Shown here: positions 47,830-51,904 of the stretch, piece after piece | Layout of the letters: each line of letters begins with the position of its first letter | Position numbering within the stretch: position 1 is the stretch's first letter | DNA from: an uncultured Cytophagales bacterium | GTDB taxonomy: Bacteria; Bacteroidota; Bacteroidia; Cytophagales; Thermoflexibacteraceae | Length of the DNA: 64,000 bases | Direction of reading: 5' to 3' | Assembly (NCBI GenBank): GCA_938039675.1 | Contig: CALHUI010000013.1 | Span: 1-64,000, forward strand | Notes under the pieces: generated by a model | What the model was told of the DNA's origin: nothing | Database searches by the model: none | The model's input: the letters and a program-made list of their open reading frames with translations, nothing else | Made by a program: the position numbers and the translations under genes

Positions 47830-48747
47830 TTATTTCTTTGGTTCAAACAATCCCTGTGCGCGGTCTGGATAGTCGGTAATGATGCCATCTACGCCCATTT
47901 GCGCCAGTTTTTTCATGGTGTCAAAATCATTGACTGTCCAAGGGATGATTTTAATGCCCTCTTTTTTGCCGTACTCAATCAGCGAAGATGTTACCAGTAG
48001 GTGATAGGGGCTGTAAACATCGGGTTTAAAGCCCAATTCTTTGATGGCGTTTTCATAGAACGGGTTCTTGGCAACCAGCAATGCAATAGTAATTTTATCG
48101 TCCATTTTTTTCAGTGCCTGCAAAGTGCGCACGTCAAACGACTGTATGCAGGTGCGCTCTGCAATGCCTTTTTCTTTGATAATCCGATAAACCAATTCCA
48201 TAAACTCCTGTGGCTCAGGATGGTAAATATTATCGCTTTCGGGTTCTATTTTGGTTTCTATGTTATAGCGCGGTGCGGGCAGTCCTTTTTCACGGGCATA
48301 TTTTTCTGTAGCATCTATCAAAGCGGAGAGGAGGGGCTTGAATGCAACCATTTTCTGCTGTTCGGGGTAGTCTGGGTTGCTCATGCTGCCACAGTCGCAG
48401 CGGGCAATGCTGTCATAGCTCATCTGGTAGAGGTTGTAATTTTTCTCTTCCGATTCTTTAATGGTTTCCCCTTGTGCGTTTTTGCAGATTTTGTGGTTCA
48501 GGAAGGGTTCGTGCGAAACTACCACTTTTTTGTCTTTGCTGATAACTACGTCCAACTCAAGCGTATTGACGCCGTAGTCTAATGCTTTGAGCATAGATGG
48601 AATCGTATTTTCGGGCACAAGTCCGCGCGCGCCGCGGTGTCCCTGTAAGTCAAATTGTTCGCGAGGTTTCTGCATATCAGGCGATTGACACTGGGTAAGT
48701 AGTGGCAAGCCTGTGAGAAGAAGTATGCCGAAAATCAAACATTTCAT
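47830..48747 (-). CDS. Glycerophosphodiester phosphodiesterase, lipoprotein
   Basis: Cleaves glycerophosphodiesters to glycerol-3-phosphate and an alcohol. The 305-residue product has a lipobox-like signal (FGILLLTGLPLLTQCQSPD), so it is probably membrane-anchored. The GDPD signature is LQGHRGARGLVPENTIPSML (His, Arg, Glu), then NTLELDVVISKDKKVVVSHE (Glu, Asp, His). The C-terminal TIM-barrel half includes PWTVNDFDTMKKLAQMGVDG. Length matches the GlpQ class. A small palindrome (CGGTA-AAAA-TACCG, 48767-48780) lies 20 bp upstream of its start. Confidence 0.95.
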   Translation of the reverse strand: MKCLIFGILLLTGLPLLTQCQSPDMQKPREQFDLQGHRGARGLVPENTIPSMLKALDYGVNTLELDVVISKDKKVVVSHEPFLNHKICKNAQGETIKESEEKNYNLYQMSYDSIARCDCGSMSNPDYPEQQKMVAFKPLLSALIDATEKYAREKGLPAPRYNIETKIEPESDNIYHPEPQEFMELVYRIIKEKGIAERTCIQSFDVRTLQALKKMDDKITIALLVAKNPFYENAIKELGFKPDVYSPYHLLVTSSLIEYGKKEGIKIIPWTVNDFDTMKKLAQMGVDGIITDYPDRAQGLFEPKK

Positions 48748-48974
48748 GGTTGTTGTTATTTAAGGTCGGTAAAAATACCGTTTCGGGCTTTAGCAAAAGA
48801 AATGGGTACGCAGATTTAGCAGGAAATTAACATGCGGTTGTGCCTGCAAGTATGTTCTATAAAAAAATGTTTAAGAAAGTGCGCAAAAACTTAAACAAAT
48901 GTGTGTACAAATTATTTTTATAATAGAATGAAAAAATAACTGCTTAATTATTCAACCATTAATTATTTACTGCT
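48748..48974. other. 227-bp divergent intergenic region ahead of the rhodopsin gene
   Basis: AT-rich, especially at 48850-48974. It holds the small palindrome at 48767-48780. I found no convincing TAnnTTTG -7 box, so the rhodopsin promoter is not located here by eye. Confidence 0.6.
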
Positions 48975-49736
48975 ATGTTTAACTCACCGATACTACTCGA
49001 TGCTACGCTCCGCGCCGGAGACTACATCGGATTCACATTCTTTACAGGCTACATGTCTATGTTAGCCGCTTCTATTTTCTTCATCATAGAGCGGGGAACA
49101 GTATCCGACAAATGGAAGACATCTTTACTGGTTTCAGCATTAATTACTTTTATTGCGGCTGTTCACTACTTCTATATGAGGGGTGTATGGCTGGAAACAG
49201 CAACATCGCCTACGCAATTTCGGTACATTGACTGGACGCTAACCGTTCCGTTGATGTGTATTGAATACTATCTCATTTTAAAACCTGCCGGTGCAAAATC
49301 CGGTATGCTTGTACGACTAATTCTGGGTTCTCTGGTGATGCTGGTAGCCGGTTATATTGGGGAAGCGGTGGTTATTGAGCAAAATGTGCTTTGGGGTATT
49401 ATTTCTACGCTCGGTTGGGCACTGATTATCTATGAAATTTACGTAGGTGAAGCTGCGAAAGTAGCTGCTGCAAGCAACAATCCCGTTGTGCAGAAAGGTT
49501 ACAATGTGTTGCGTTGGTTTACGCTGGTAGGTTGGGCAATCTATCCCATCGGTTACATGATGCTGCCCGGTAATTTGCTGCACGGGTTAGTGGAAGGCTA
49601 TGACCCCACAAAATCTTCACCCGTAGACCTTGCCTACAATATTGCAGATGCCGTGAACAAAATCGGCTTTGGTTTGGTAATTTATACCATTGCCAAAGGG
49701 GCTACTGCGGAAGAAAAGGCACTCGCACGCGCGTAG
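48975..49736 (+). CDS. Proteorhodopsin-type light-driven proton pump with carotenoid-fenestration Gly
   Basis: Seven-helix retinal protein of 253 residues. In helix C the motif is R83-Y-I-D86-W-T-L-T90 with E97 in MCIEYYLIL: the DTE motif of proton-pumping proteorhodopsins (D86 acceptor, E97 donor). M94 occupies the spectral-tuning position (L/Q105 in GPR/BPR), which predicts green absorption. H64 matches the conserved His of GPR. The Schiff-base lysine is K229, preceded by D225 in NIADAVNKIGFGLVIYTIAK. In helix E, residue G141 (in LWGIISTLGW) aligns with the residue that is Trp in bacteriorhodopsin, Phe152 in GPR and Gly156 in xanthorhodopsin, so a carotenoid antenna may bind. No retinal or carotenoid biosynthesis gene is adjacent. 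Confidence 0.97.
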   Translation: MFNSPILLDATLRAGDYIGFTFFTGYMSMLAASIFFIIERGTVSDKWKTSLLVSALITFIAAVHYFYMRGVWLETATSPTQFRYIDWTLTVPLMCIEYYLILKPAGAKSGMLVRLILGSLVMLVAGYIGEAVVIEQNVLWGIISTLGWALIIYEIYVGEAAKVAAASNNPVVQKGYNVLRWFTLVGWAIYPIGYMMLPGNLLHGLVEGYDPTKSSPVDLAYNIADAVNKIGFGLVIYTIAKGATAEEKALARA

Positions 49737-49786
49737 GTTAGAACTTGCTAATAGTTAGAGTCTTTTATTTTTGATGATTTCTGCTG

Positions 49787-49820
49787 AAAATGAGCAACTG
49801 TACTGTGGTTGCTCATTTTT
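49787..49820 (+). terminator. Strong intrinsic terminator after the rhodopsin gene
   Basis: AAAATGAGCAAC (49787-49798) pairs perfectly with GTTGCTCATTTT (from 49808), 12 bp, 9-base loop, ending in a T run. Located 50 bp past the stop, it makes the rhodopsin a separate transcript on this side. Confidence 0.93.
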
Positions 49821-49911
49821 GTGCAGACTTGGCAGGTTGAGCAACTGAAAACGCACGACATCAACATGCAGATAGAAATGCTTTTACAGAAAAGATGCGC
49901 TCCGCAACTAC

Positions 49912-50886
49912 TCAATTGCTTATTGCCAAAATTGAAGCCACTTTTCGCTCGCCTGTTTTGTCGGAAGGGCGATTGATTACCTTGCCTTTCACGACCATTG
50001 TGCTGGAGCCGCCTCCATCCAAATTAACGGCATAACGGGCATTTAATCCCAGAAAAATTTCAGCCAATTCGGTGAAAGTAGCGCCCTCGCTGTATCCGGG
50101 TTGCCTGCCGTCCACTACCAAAAGGAGCAGCCTGCCTTTGCGGTCTAAACCAACCGCCGCGCGTGGGTTAGTATTGGCAATTTGTGTAAACCACTCCTCG
50201 CTGTCAGTAATGAATATTTTACCTTGCCACACTAACATTGGGCCTCCGCCCATTATTTCGGGTGCTTGCCACTTGTAAGGGACAGTGGGAAAAAACCGTG
50301 TAGGCGGATTTTGTTGCAAAGGCTTGACAGTGAAGGGGTTGGGTTTGTTATATGCCCACGTGTTGCCGCTGCTGTCCGTAAAAGTCCATGCAAAATTTAC
50401 TCGCTTGCCCGCAAAACCTACTGCACTGCGGGTCGGGTACAAAGCGCAAATGATGCCTGTGCTGTCTTTGCGGAAAACGGGTAATACATGCCCTGTCAGC
50501 AGTTGCCCGTGATGCACTAACAGGCTTACGGAGCTAAGTCCATTGCGGGCAGTATCAGGCTTGAAAGTAAAATAGCCACCGTTGATAGCTACTAAACTGT
50601 TGCATTGCCGTGCAAGTTCGGATGTGCACAAAAGTCCTTTACCTGCCGCCGCCGGTATAGTCTCAATGCGTAAACGCTTGTTTTTCAGGTTAATAACAGC
50701 CAAGTAAGCAGCTATTTTTTTGCCATTGGGCAGTGTACCTTCAAACTTTCGGAGGCAGATAGATTTACCCGTTTGCAATGTGTGGTTTAGGCTGTCCATA
50801 TCTTGCCATGCCAATCGGTATTGTGCATATGCAGGAAAGCAACAATGCAGGCTAAACAGTAAAACAGCCCAACCAATGTGCAGCAC
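49912..50886 (-). CDS. NAGPA-domain phosphodiester glycosidase-like protein
   Basis: The C-terminal 230 residues match the phosphodiester glycosidase (NAGPA) domain: NSLVAINGGYFTF, EIMGGGPMLVWQGK, NPRAAVGLDRKGRLLLLVVD, GRQPGYSEGATFTELAEIFL and VNLDGGGSSTMVVKGKVIN. Such proteins remove alpha-linked sugars from phosphodiesters, for instance in wall polymers. I place the start at GTG 50886 because a signal peptide (VLHIGWAVLLFSLHCCFPAY) begins there; ATG at 50970 would overlap the MoxR gene by 47 bp and put an unusual 28-residue lead before the signal. The start is therefore uncertain. Confidence 0.85.
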   Translation of the reverse strand: MLHIGWAVLLFSLHCCFPAYAQYRLAWQDMDSLNHTLQTGKSICLRKFEGTLPNGKKIAAYLAVINLKNKRLRIETIPAAAGKGLLCTSELARQCNSLVAINGGYFTFKPDTARNGLSSVSLLVHHGQLLTGHVLPVFRKDSTGIICALYPTRSAVGFAGKRVNFAWTFTDSSGNTWAYNKPNPFTVKPLQQNPPTRFFPTVPYKWQAPEIMGGGPMLVWQGKIFITDSEEWFTQIANTNPRAAVGLDRKGRLLLLVVDGRQPGYSEGATFTELAEIFLGLNARYAVNLDGGGSSTMVVKGKVINRPSDKTGERKVASILAISN

Positions 50887-50923
50887 ACTGTTGGTCGGGC
50901 ATATTTTGTTTATTGCAAAGCCC

Positions 50924-51904
50924 TTAAATATTAATCGGTACTTTTTTGAGAATGGTATCAATAACTTCACGGCTTGTAATTCCTTCTGCCTCAGCTTCGT
51001 AGTTCAGAATGATGCGATGATTCAATACATCAAAGGCTACTTCTTTGATGTCCTCGGGTAGCACGAAGTCGCGCTCCTCAAAGAATGCGACGGCTTTGGC
51101 GGCGCGGTTCAGGTTGATGCTGGCGCGCGGCGATACGCCGTACTGAATGTAATTGGCCATATCACCCAGATTGTATTCTTTGGGTTTACGGGTAGCAAAA
51201 ACCAGCTCTACGATGTATTTCTCTAATGATTCGGAGATAGTTACGCAATTGATGGCATCGCGAATTTGGAAAATCTCCTGTTTGCTGAGTACTGCATTAA
51301 CAGTTGGCTGGAAAGACATATTGCTCATGCGGCGCATAACCTCCAGTTCAGAATCCTTGTCTAAATAGCTGACAAAAATTTTAAGCATGAAGCGGTCTAA
51401 CTGTGCCTCGGGCAGGGGATACGTTCCTTCTTGTTCAACCGGGTTTTGTGTAGCAAGAACCAAAAAGGGTTTGTCGAGCGGGTATGTGGTTTCTCCGATT
51501 GTTACTTGCTTTTCTTGCATGGCTTCCAGCAAGGCTGCTTGCACTTTGGCAGGCGAGCGGTTCACTTCGTCGGCCAAAATCATATTGGCAAAAATAGGCC
51601 CTTTTTTGACCTCAAATTCACTGGTGCGCTGGTTGTAAATCATCGTACCGACCAAATCGGAGGGCAACAGGTCAGGCGTGAACTGAATGCGTTGAAAATT
51701 GAGGTGTAAAACTTGTGCAAGAGTATTGACAGTCAGTGTTTTAGCCAACCCGGGTACACCTTCGAGCAAAATATGCCCGTTGGTAAACAGTCCGATGAGC
51801 AGGCGATTAATCATGTAGCGTTGTCCTACAACAACTTTGTTTACTTCTTCATAAACTTGCCTGATTTTAGCCTGCATTTCAGCATTTGTCATGGGCGCGA
51901 CCAT
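50924..51904 (-). CDS. MoxR-family AAA+ ATPase
   Basis: The 326-residue product has Walker A (EGVPGLAKTLTV near 50), the MoxR marker RIQFTPDLLPSDLVGTMIYN, Walker B MILADEVNRSPAKVQAALLE, sensor 1 LATQNPVEQEGTYPLPEAQL and the C-terminal lid with YGVSPRASINLNRAAKAVAF. MoxR ATPases are chaperone-like assembly factors, usually followed by DUF58 and VWA-domain genes; those are absent here. It is the gene before the NAGPA-type one, spaced 37 bp from the assumed GTG start. Confidence 0.95.
   Translation of the reverse strand: MVAPMTNAEMQAKIRQVYEEVNKVVVGQRYMINRLLIGLFTNGHILLEGVPGLAKTLTVNTLAQVLHLNFQRIQFTPDLLPSDLVGTMIYNQRTSEFEVKKGPIFANMILADEVNRSPAKVQAALLEAMQEKQVTIGETTYPLDKPFLVLATQNPVEQEGTYPLPEAQLDRFMLKIFVSYLDKDSELEVMRRMSNMSFQPTVNAVLSKQEIFQIRDAINCVTISESLEKYIVELVFATRKPKEYNLGDMANYIQYGVSPRASINLNRAAKAVAFFEERDFVLPEDIKEVAFDVLNHRIILNYEAEAEGITSREVIDTILKKVPINI

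Follow-up and report, generated by a model that had tools for sequence, protein, structure and literature searches.

Rhodopsins that combine a bound hydroxycarotenoid with a fenestration glycine are already known. PMC12308411 describes KR1 (Dokdonia eikasta) and EINA29G6 as proteorhodopsins that bind lutein and zeaxanthin, and all Bacteroidota proteorhodopsins of subtree I carry the fenestration glycine (2026 paper, PMC13043013). According to PMC12308411 and PMC13093654, the carotenoid site is defined or lined by the residues that G141, T145, and Y194 of the protein studied here match. This protein is encoded in the window, a 64,000-nucleotide stretch of DNA from an uncultured Cytophagales bacterium, where the following features were located:

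47830..48747, minus strand: GDPD, glycerophosphodiester phosphodiesterase, upstream neighbor of the rhodopsin gene
48975..49736, plus strand: proteorhodopsin gene, 253 aa, predicted seven-helix retinal-binding proton pump
49230..49232, plus strand: codon of D86, the proton acceptor of the Schiff base, which forms the DTE motif with T90 and E97
49395..49397, plus strand: codon of G141, the fenestration glycine (Gly156 of xanthorhodopsin [XR], Gly178 of Gloeobacter rhodopsin [GR], Gly153 of Kin4B8)
49407..49409, plus strand: codon of T145 (XR Thr160, Kin4B8 Thr157; Thr in 85/86 rows of relatives)
49554..49556, plus strand: codon of Y194 (XR Tyr207, Kin4B8 Tyr204)
49659..49661, plus strand: codon of K229, the retinal Schiff-base lysine by alignment
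49912..50970, minus strand: NAGPA-type phosphodiester glycosidase, downstream neighbor of the rhodopsin gene

Among described systems, the window rhodopsin is most readily compared with NM-R1, solved by cryo-EM with zeaxanthin (PDB 9jou), with which it shares the proteorhodopsin fold (54% identity), the same glycine, the DTE motif, and a Met at the tuning site. Unlike the window protein, however, the 9jov row of our alignment (identical to 9jou over the aligned stretch) has a Gly at the position of T145 and is gapped over six columns of the F-G region; because of the Gly-for-Thr difference, the carotenoid pockets of the two proteins are not identical. Like green proteorhodopsin (GPR; 2l6x, 7b03), the window protein has a DTE motif, but Leu105 of GPR corresponds to M94 and GPR lacks the fenestration glycine. 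With XR (3ddl), Kin4B8 (7ytb, 8i2z), and GR (6nwd) it has three carotenoid-site residues in common (Gly, Thr, and Tyr), but it is only 30% identical to them and lies on a separate branch of the tree. KR1 and EINA29G6, which lie outside the alignment, are proteorhodopsins like the window protein by description.

The window rhodopsin and its predicted carotenoid-site residues

The open reading frame begins with an ATG at 48975 and ends with a stop codon at 49734-49736, and its frame and coordinates are correct. The translation scored 135.1 bits on the Pfam family PF01036 (Bac_rhodopsin; cut-off, 24.6 bits; E = 3e-39), and no NCBIfam model matched it at E up to 0.001. D86, T90, M94, E97, D225, and K229, the residues on which the preliminary description had based its reading of a proton pump, all occupy the positions given there in the 253-residue frame, and H64, the His paired with D86, is also present. 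The Pfam match, DTE motif, K229, and H64 make outward proton pumping a well-supported prediction; the roles of D86, H64, E97, and K229 are presumably those familiar from the rhodopsin family. A Met at the tuning site, here M94, goes with green absorption.

A MAFFT alignment of 86 rows comprised the window protein, 79 relatives, and six reference sequences (four of xanthorhodopsin type, 9jov, and GPR). The relatives, the best 80 of 241 found together with those from family genomes, are closely related sequences and do not amount to a survey; one of the 87 loci (L070) returned no rhodopsin open reading frame and was left out of the conservation counts. D86, E97, D225, and K229 aligned with D96, E107, D236, and K240 of XR. 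As the preliminary description had proposed, G141 shared a column with Gly156 of XR and Gly178 of GR (index 147 in a stretch starting at residue 32), which also held Gly153 of Kin4B8 (index 150 in a stretch starting at residue 4) and a Gly of both the Thermus rhodopsin 5azd and 9jov. Alignment with GPR, XR, and GR placed no bulky residue at the Gly156-equivalent position of the window protein. Replacement of Phe152 of GPR, claimed in the same description, held in the phmmer alignment (on which that number was counted by hand), whereas MAFFT, with a shifted gap, put Pro150 opposite G141; this two-residue ambiguity is a matter of gap choice, and GPR is non-Gly either way.

Over the rows of relatives, without the references, glycine always occupied the G141 position (86/86; 81/81 after removal of five duplicate loci). 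H64, D86, T90, M94, E97, D225, and K229 were each conserved in 85 of these 86; in every case the one exception was a truncated sequence with a gap there. The fenestration glycine marks Bacteroidota proteorhodopsins generally and is nothing special to the window gene; since it is invariant across relatives whatever the organism, its presence tells little about this cell. Tyr is also found at the Y194 position in GPR, so that this residue is not diagnostic alone. With respect to the polar floor for 3-hydroxy carotenoids in Kin4B8 (Thr157, Ser208, and Tyr209), T145 matches the Thr, but P198 and G199 face Ser208 and Tyr209 in a loop whose alignment is unsure.

An AlphaFold model of the window rhodopsin (29-row alignment) reached a mean pLDDT of 87.3 and a pTM of 0.85, and every one of the 50 entries listed in a structure comparison was a microbial rhodopsin (Z from 31.1 down to 24.9). 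Among them, 9jou ranked third, with a Z of 30.3 and an rmsd of 1.6 for 230 residues, below two PsFAR rows (Z 31.1 and 31.0) and above several proteorhodopsins such as 7b03 (Z 30.2; rmsd 1.4), all tied within 1 Z unit. By sequence, the best solved relatives were 9jov and 9jou (E = 6e-70), followed by GPR (2l6x; E = 2e-57). In a midpoint-rooted tree of the 86 rows, which carried a long-branch warning, the window rhodopsin grouped with GPR and Bacteroidota pumps, and the four xanthorhodopsin-type references were set apart by a branch with 100/100 support. Tree position and the 30% identity reject a xanthorhodopsin identity. Bacteroidota-type rhodopsins were also seen on contigs labeled Caenarcanales (Melainabacteria; L053) and Bacteriovoracaceae (L055), reflecting gene transfer or misbinning. 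In a plasmid collection, rhodopsins had less than 60% identity to the window protein (8 records).

The window rhodopsin is under strong purifying selection: against its nearest relative, from the same genus and 98% identical (L003), dN was 0.010 and dS 0.293 (NG86). Only this pair was used, as values labeled YN00 and NG86 were nearly always equal across the data and many dS values were saturated. These values and the open frame reject a pseudogene. The family to which the genome belongs (Cytophagales, Bacteroidota) was represented by 13 genomes, among them Thermoflexibacter ruber DSM 9560 and two MAGs labeled Bernardetiaceae, SKYG34 and SKYG123; 10 were at least 90% complete with at most 5% contamination, and three were rated 62 to 89% complete. 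A rhodopsin match was found in 7/13, with one copy at a contig end (G004) and one split by a frame break (G007). In the same-genus MAG SKYG123, the reading frame of the rhodopsin gene (L033, 4001-4761) breaks near codon 37, through either real decay or an assembly error.

Carotenoid gene homologues and the possible role of a bound carotenoid

The window genome (3.28 Mb; 3,283,007 bases) is rated 100% complete and contains the following homologues of carotenoid genes:

C7:101175-101900: SQS_PSY (crtB type), phytoene synthase-type gene, PF00494
C18:26038-27150: crtY, PF05834, 175.1 bits, passing the Pfam cut-off only
C4:30769-31188: crtZ-like gene, 154-aa protein, 39% identity to Pantoea CrtZ, E = 6e-23

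The crtB-type gene passed no NCBIfam cut-off; its name is based on Pfam assignment and on adjacency to crtI. The adjoining crtI scored 734.6 bits against a cut-off of 640 for the NCBIfam model CrtID (bifunctional phytoene desaturase/3,4-desaturase). Two PF04116 hydroxylases in the genome were unlike CrtZ in length and sequence, and a protein query was therefore used to look for crtZ; the crtZ-like call is one BLAST match to a protein that matches no Pfam or NCBIfam model. A CrtYcd-type cyclase was rejected, being found in 0/13 family genomes (3 of the 30 genomes searched were positive). In several relatives, a lycopene cyclase gene lies beside blh and another crtY lies elsewhere (G017:C55:157163-159189; G026:C1:457171-459077; G041:C22:15952-17984). 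Homologues of crtB, crtI, crtY, and crtZ in the same genome make it plausible that the window cell produces a 3-hydroxylated beta-ring carotenoid. The desaturase type is also compatible with monocyclic, saproxanthin- or myxol-like carotenoids.

The preliminary description had proposed that G141 opens the retinal pocket for an antenna carotenoid. Of this, a carotenoid-compatible fenestration in the predicted pump is well supported by the match of G141, T145, and Y194 to XR and Kin4B8, the zeaxanthin-bound state of NM-R1, and the CrtZ-like protein; the carotenoid itself may be an antenna or an accelerator of the photocycle. That a bound carotenoid would mainly accelerate the photocycle or stabilize the protein, with no light-harvesting antenna, is a live possibility that we place a little short of an even chance. 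It is favored by the closest solved relatives by sequence being 9jov and 9jou, and by a 2025 study of marine Bacteroidota rhodopsins by Fujiwara et al., which we take to be the NM-R1 paper and whose title calls rhodopsin-bound carotenoids photocycle-accelerating pigments. However, T145 matches XR and Kin4B8, for which PMC13093654 gives measured energy transfer, and not 9jov. In addition, PMC12308411 reports lutein and zeaxanthin binding by KR1 and EINA29G6, and efficient transfer for Kin4B8.

Retinal supply and an NTF2/SnoaL-like neighbor gene

The absence of Blh from an otherwise carotenoid-equipped family is the less expected and more useful result. PF15461 found no Blh in the window genome in a search in which no control genome was positive; the same profile, again with no control genome positive, found Blh in 24/33 rhodopsin-bearing relatives, which serve as an independent positive control. 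With TIGR03753, Blh was found in 0/13 family genomes (one control positive, below the cut-off). A 23-sequence alignment of relatives' Blh, applied at E up to 1, found it in 0/13 family genomes and 0/5 other rhodopsin genomes; it recovered four positive controls, each of which had supplied a row. The nine relatives of the 33 without Blh comprised four in the window family (L010, L011, L012 [T. ruber], and L033), two Saprospiraceae (L058 and L060), Fibrisoma montanum (L067), Schleiferia thermophila (L084), and Thermaurantimonas aggregans (L087). PF03055, the RPE65-type oxygenase family, was likewise found nowhere in the window genome (2/14 control genomes positive). All Blh absences are those of profile searches of draft genomes.

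A blh gene concealed next to the window rhodopsin is ruled out by the length of both intergenic stretches: 227 bases lie between GDPD and the rhodopsin gene (48748-48974), insufficient for blh or the NTF2-like gene described below, and 175 bases between the rhodopsin and NAGPA-type genes (49737-49911), insufficient for blh. Promoter-like sites (3, against 2.9 in shuffles) and terminator-like sites (2, against 1.3) were at about shuffle level. The rhodopsins of the family fall in a starred set of 39 tree rows with relatives from Runella, Arcicella, and Aquirufa, and blh flanks the rhodopsin gene in many of these relatives; given these neighbors, loss or non-transfer of blh in the window family is plausible.

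Rhodopsins without a known retinal-forming gene have been described before. Aurantimicrobium minutum reportedly makes retinal without blh or any known gene (PMC7734400), Rhodoluna lacicola pumps only when retinal is added (PMC7734400, PMC5459899), and rhodopsin without blh occurs in hot-spring mat bacteria of other phyla, including Roseiflexus (PMC5459899). The window bacterium resembles these organisms and the other mat members in this respect; unlike it, those named in the accessible text of the two papers are non-Bacteroidota, and Bacteroidetes appear in one sentence of PMC7734400, with no data.

Could the window opsin be non-functional in the cell for want of retinal, or active only with retinal scavenged from neighbors? 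We regard this as possible but rather doubtful. Neither Blh nor an RPE65-type oxygenase was found, R. lacicola offers a precedent, and the rhodopsin of one same-genus relative has a frame break. Purifying selection and the presence of rhodopsin in 7 of the 13 family genomes oppose a dead gene, although not scavenging, and A. minutum reportedly forms retinal without blh (PMC7734400).

In a comparison of the window with 11 other rhodopsin loci without flank blh, a family of 138- to 163-aa proteins was encoded beside six of the rhodopsins. All six members tested matched SnoaL_3 (PF13474; E = 9e-5 to 9e-9), and 0/5 matched an NCBIfam model. A PDB profile search with the family returned mostly CaMKII hub domains (best E = 1e-6). 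The model of one member (mean pLDDT 89.4) had an NTF2 fold and matched dehydratases, ketosteroid isomerases, limonene epoxide hydrolase, and CaMKII hubs (Z 16.0 to 14.6). The carboxy-terminal domain of the orange carotenoid protein (OCP) is an NTF2-fold carotenoid binder; it was absent among the 50 entries listed for the model, where a missing row proves nothing.

A profile of this family, built from 6 of the loci later found with it, located the gene next to the rhodopsin in 10/80 named loci (L011, L012, L017, L025, L060, L062, L067, L073, L084, and L086), spanning at least four Bacteroidota families, and also in L008, of the window family. Positions of representative copies are as follows:

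L011, 4905-5378, plus strand: NTF2-like gene
L012, 3404-3820, plus strand: NTF2-like gene
L060, 4824-5270, plus strand: NTF2-like gene
L067, 4868-5359, minus strand: NTF2-like gene
L084, 4750-5211, plus strand: NTF2-like gene, starting two bases after the rhodopsin stop codon
L073, 4798-5283: NTF2-like gene split by a stop codon

The gene lies upstream of the rhodopsin in L012, L017, and L025 and follows it in the remaining loci; only in L067 is it on the opposite strand. The interrupted copy of L073 sits in a genome with blh elsewhere, as if redundant there. With flanks of up to 4 kb a side (shorter at contig ends), 52 of the 80 loci had flank blh, 10 the NTF2-like gene, none both, and 18 neither; the NTF2-like gene was thus present in 10/28 loci without flank blh versus 0/52 with it (Fisher P = 8e-6, kinship ignored). 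By whole-genome Blh status in the 33 genomes, it occurred in 5/9 without Blh and 2/24 with Blh (P = 0.009, kinship ignored), these last two carriers speaking against a retinal route. Identity matrices of the NTF2-like proteins and adjacent rhodopsins over nine loci (L008 and L073 left out) were correlated (r = 0.67; 5 of 5000 permutations as high), and less so without the near-twin L062 (r = 0.50; 176 of 5000).

Position alone ties the NTF2-like protein to retinal. No copy adjoins the rhodopsin of the window, L003, L010, L033, L058, or L087, and 171,005 of the 3,283,007 bases of the window genome (the window plus L090, L091, L114, L131, L132, and L145) gave no match to the profile at E up to 0.001. 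The plasmid collection held no relative, and in a literature search for rhodopsin with SnoaL the term SnoaL was absent from the main text of PMC9040609. One conjecture is that the family runs its proteorhodopsin on retinal from a route that is neither Brp/Blh nor RPE65, that the NTF2/SnoaL-like neighbor in sister genera and other Blh-lacking Bacteroidota is a carrier of retinal or a carotenoid, or the missing enzyme itself, and that the window genus keeps the gene elsewhere or uses another. We consider this unlikely as a whole.

Proposed mechanism and significance

Our preferred account joins a proteorhodopsin pump, a hydroxycarotenoid in the gap at G141, and retinal from some source other than a known Brp/Blh enzyme of the cell, and we hold it to be likely. 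The window proteorhodopsin would absorb light, green being the probable color, and pump protons outward. Light would isomerize the retinal bound to K229, D86 (paired with H64) would take the Schiff-base proton, and E97 would reprotonate the base. G141, T145, and Y194 are predicted to open a space beside the retinal ring, between helices E and F, that a 3-hydroxylated carotenoid probably fills with its ring, as zeaxanthin does in NM-R1. The cell would make this carotenoid with its own CrtB-, CrtI-, CrtY-, and CrtZ-like enzymes. The carotenoid may hand energy to retinal, speed the photocycle, or both, and the retinal itself would be made by an enzyme outside the known Brp/Blh group or taken up. 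It is improbable that the pump operates carotenoid-free with the glycine an inherited clade trait unused here, a reading in keeping with the invariance of that residue but opposed by the crt homologues of the window genome, the CrtZ-like gene included, and by the hydroxylated carotenoids bound by NM-R1 and reported for KR1 and EINA29G6, all members of one broad family with the window protein.

Carotenoid-equipped proteorhodopsins may widen the light usable by heterotrophic bacteria. The fenestration glycine is an already accepted marker; what would be new is a Bacteroidota family, with the named strain Thermoflexibacter ruber DSM 9560, in which a conserved rhodopsin occurs together with a pathway to beta-ring carotenoids and no known retinal synthase was found. 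The NTF2-like neighbor gene of sister genera is a first candidate for a Blh-independent retinal supply and, if the account is true, such a supply becomes testable in a cultured organism.
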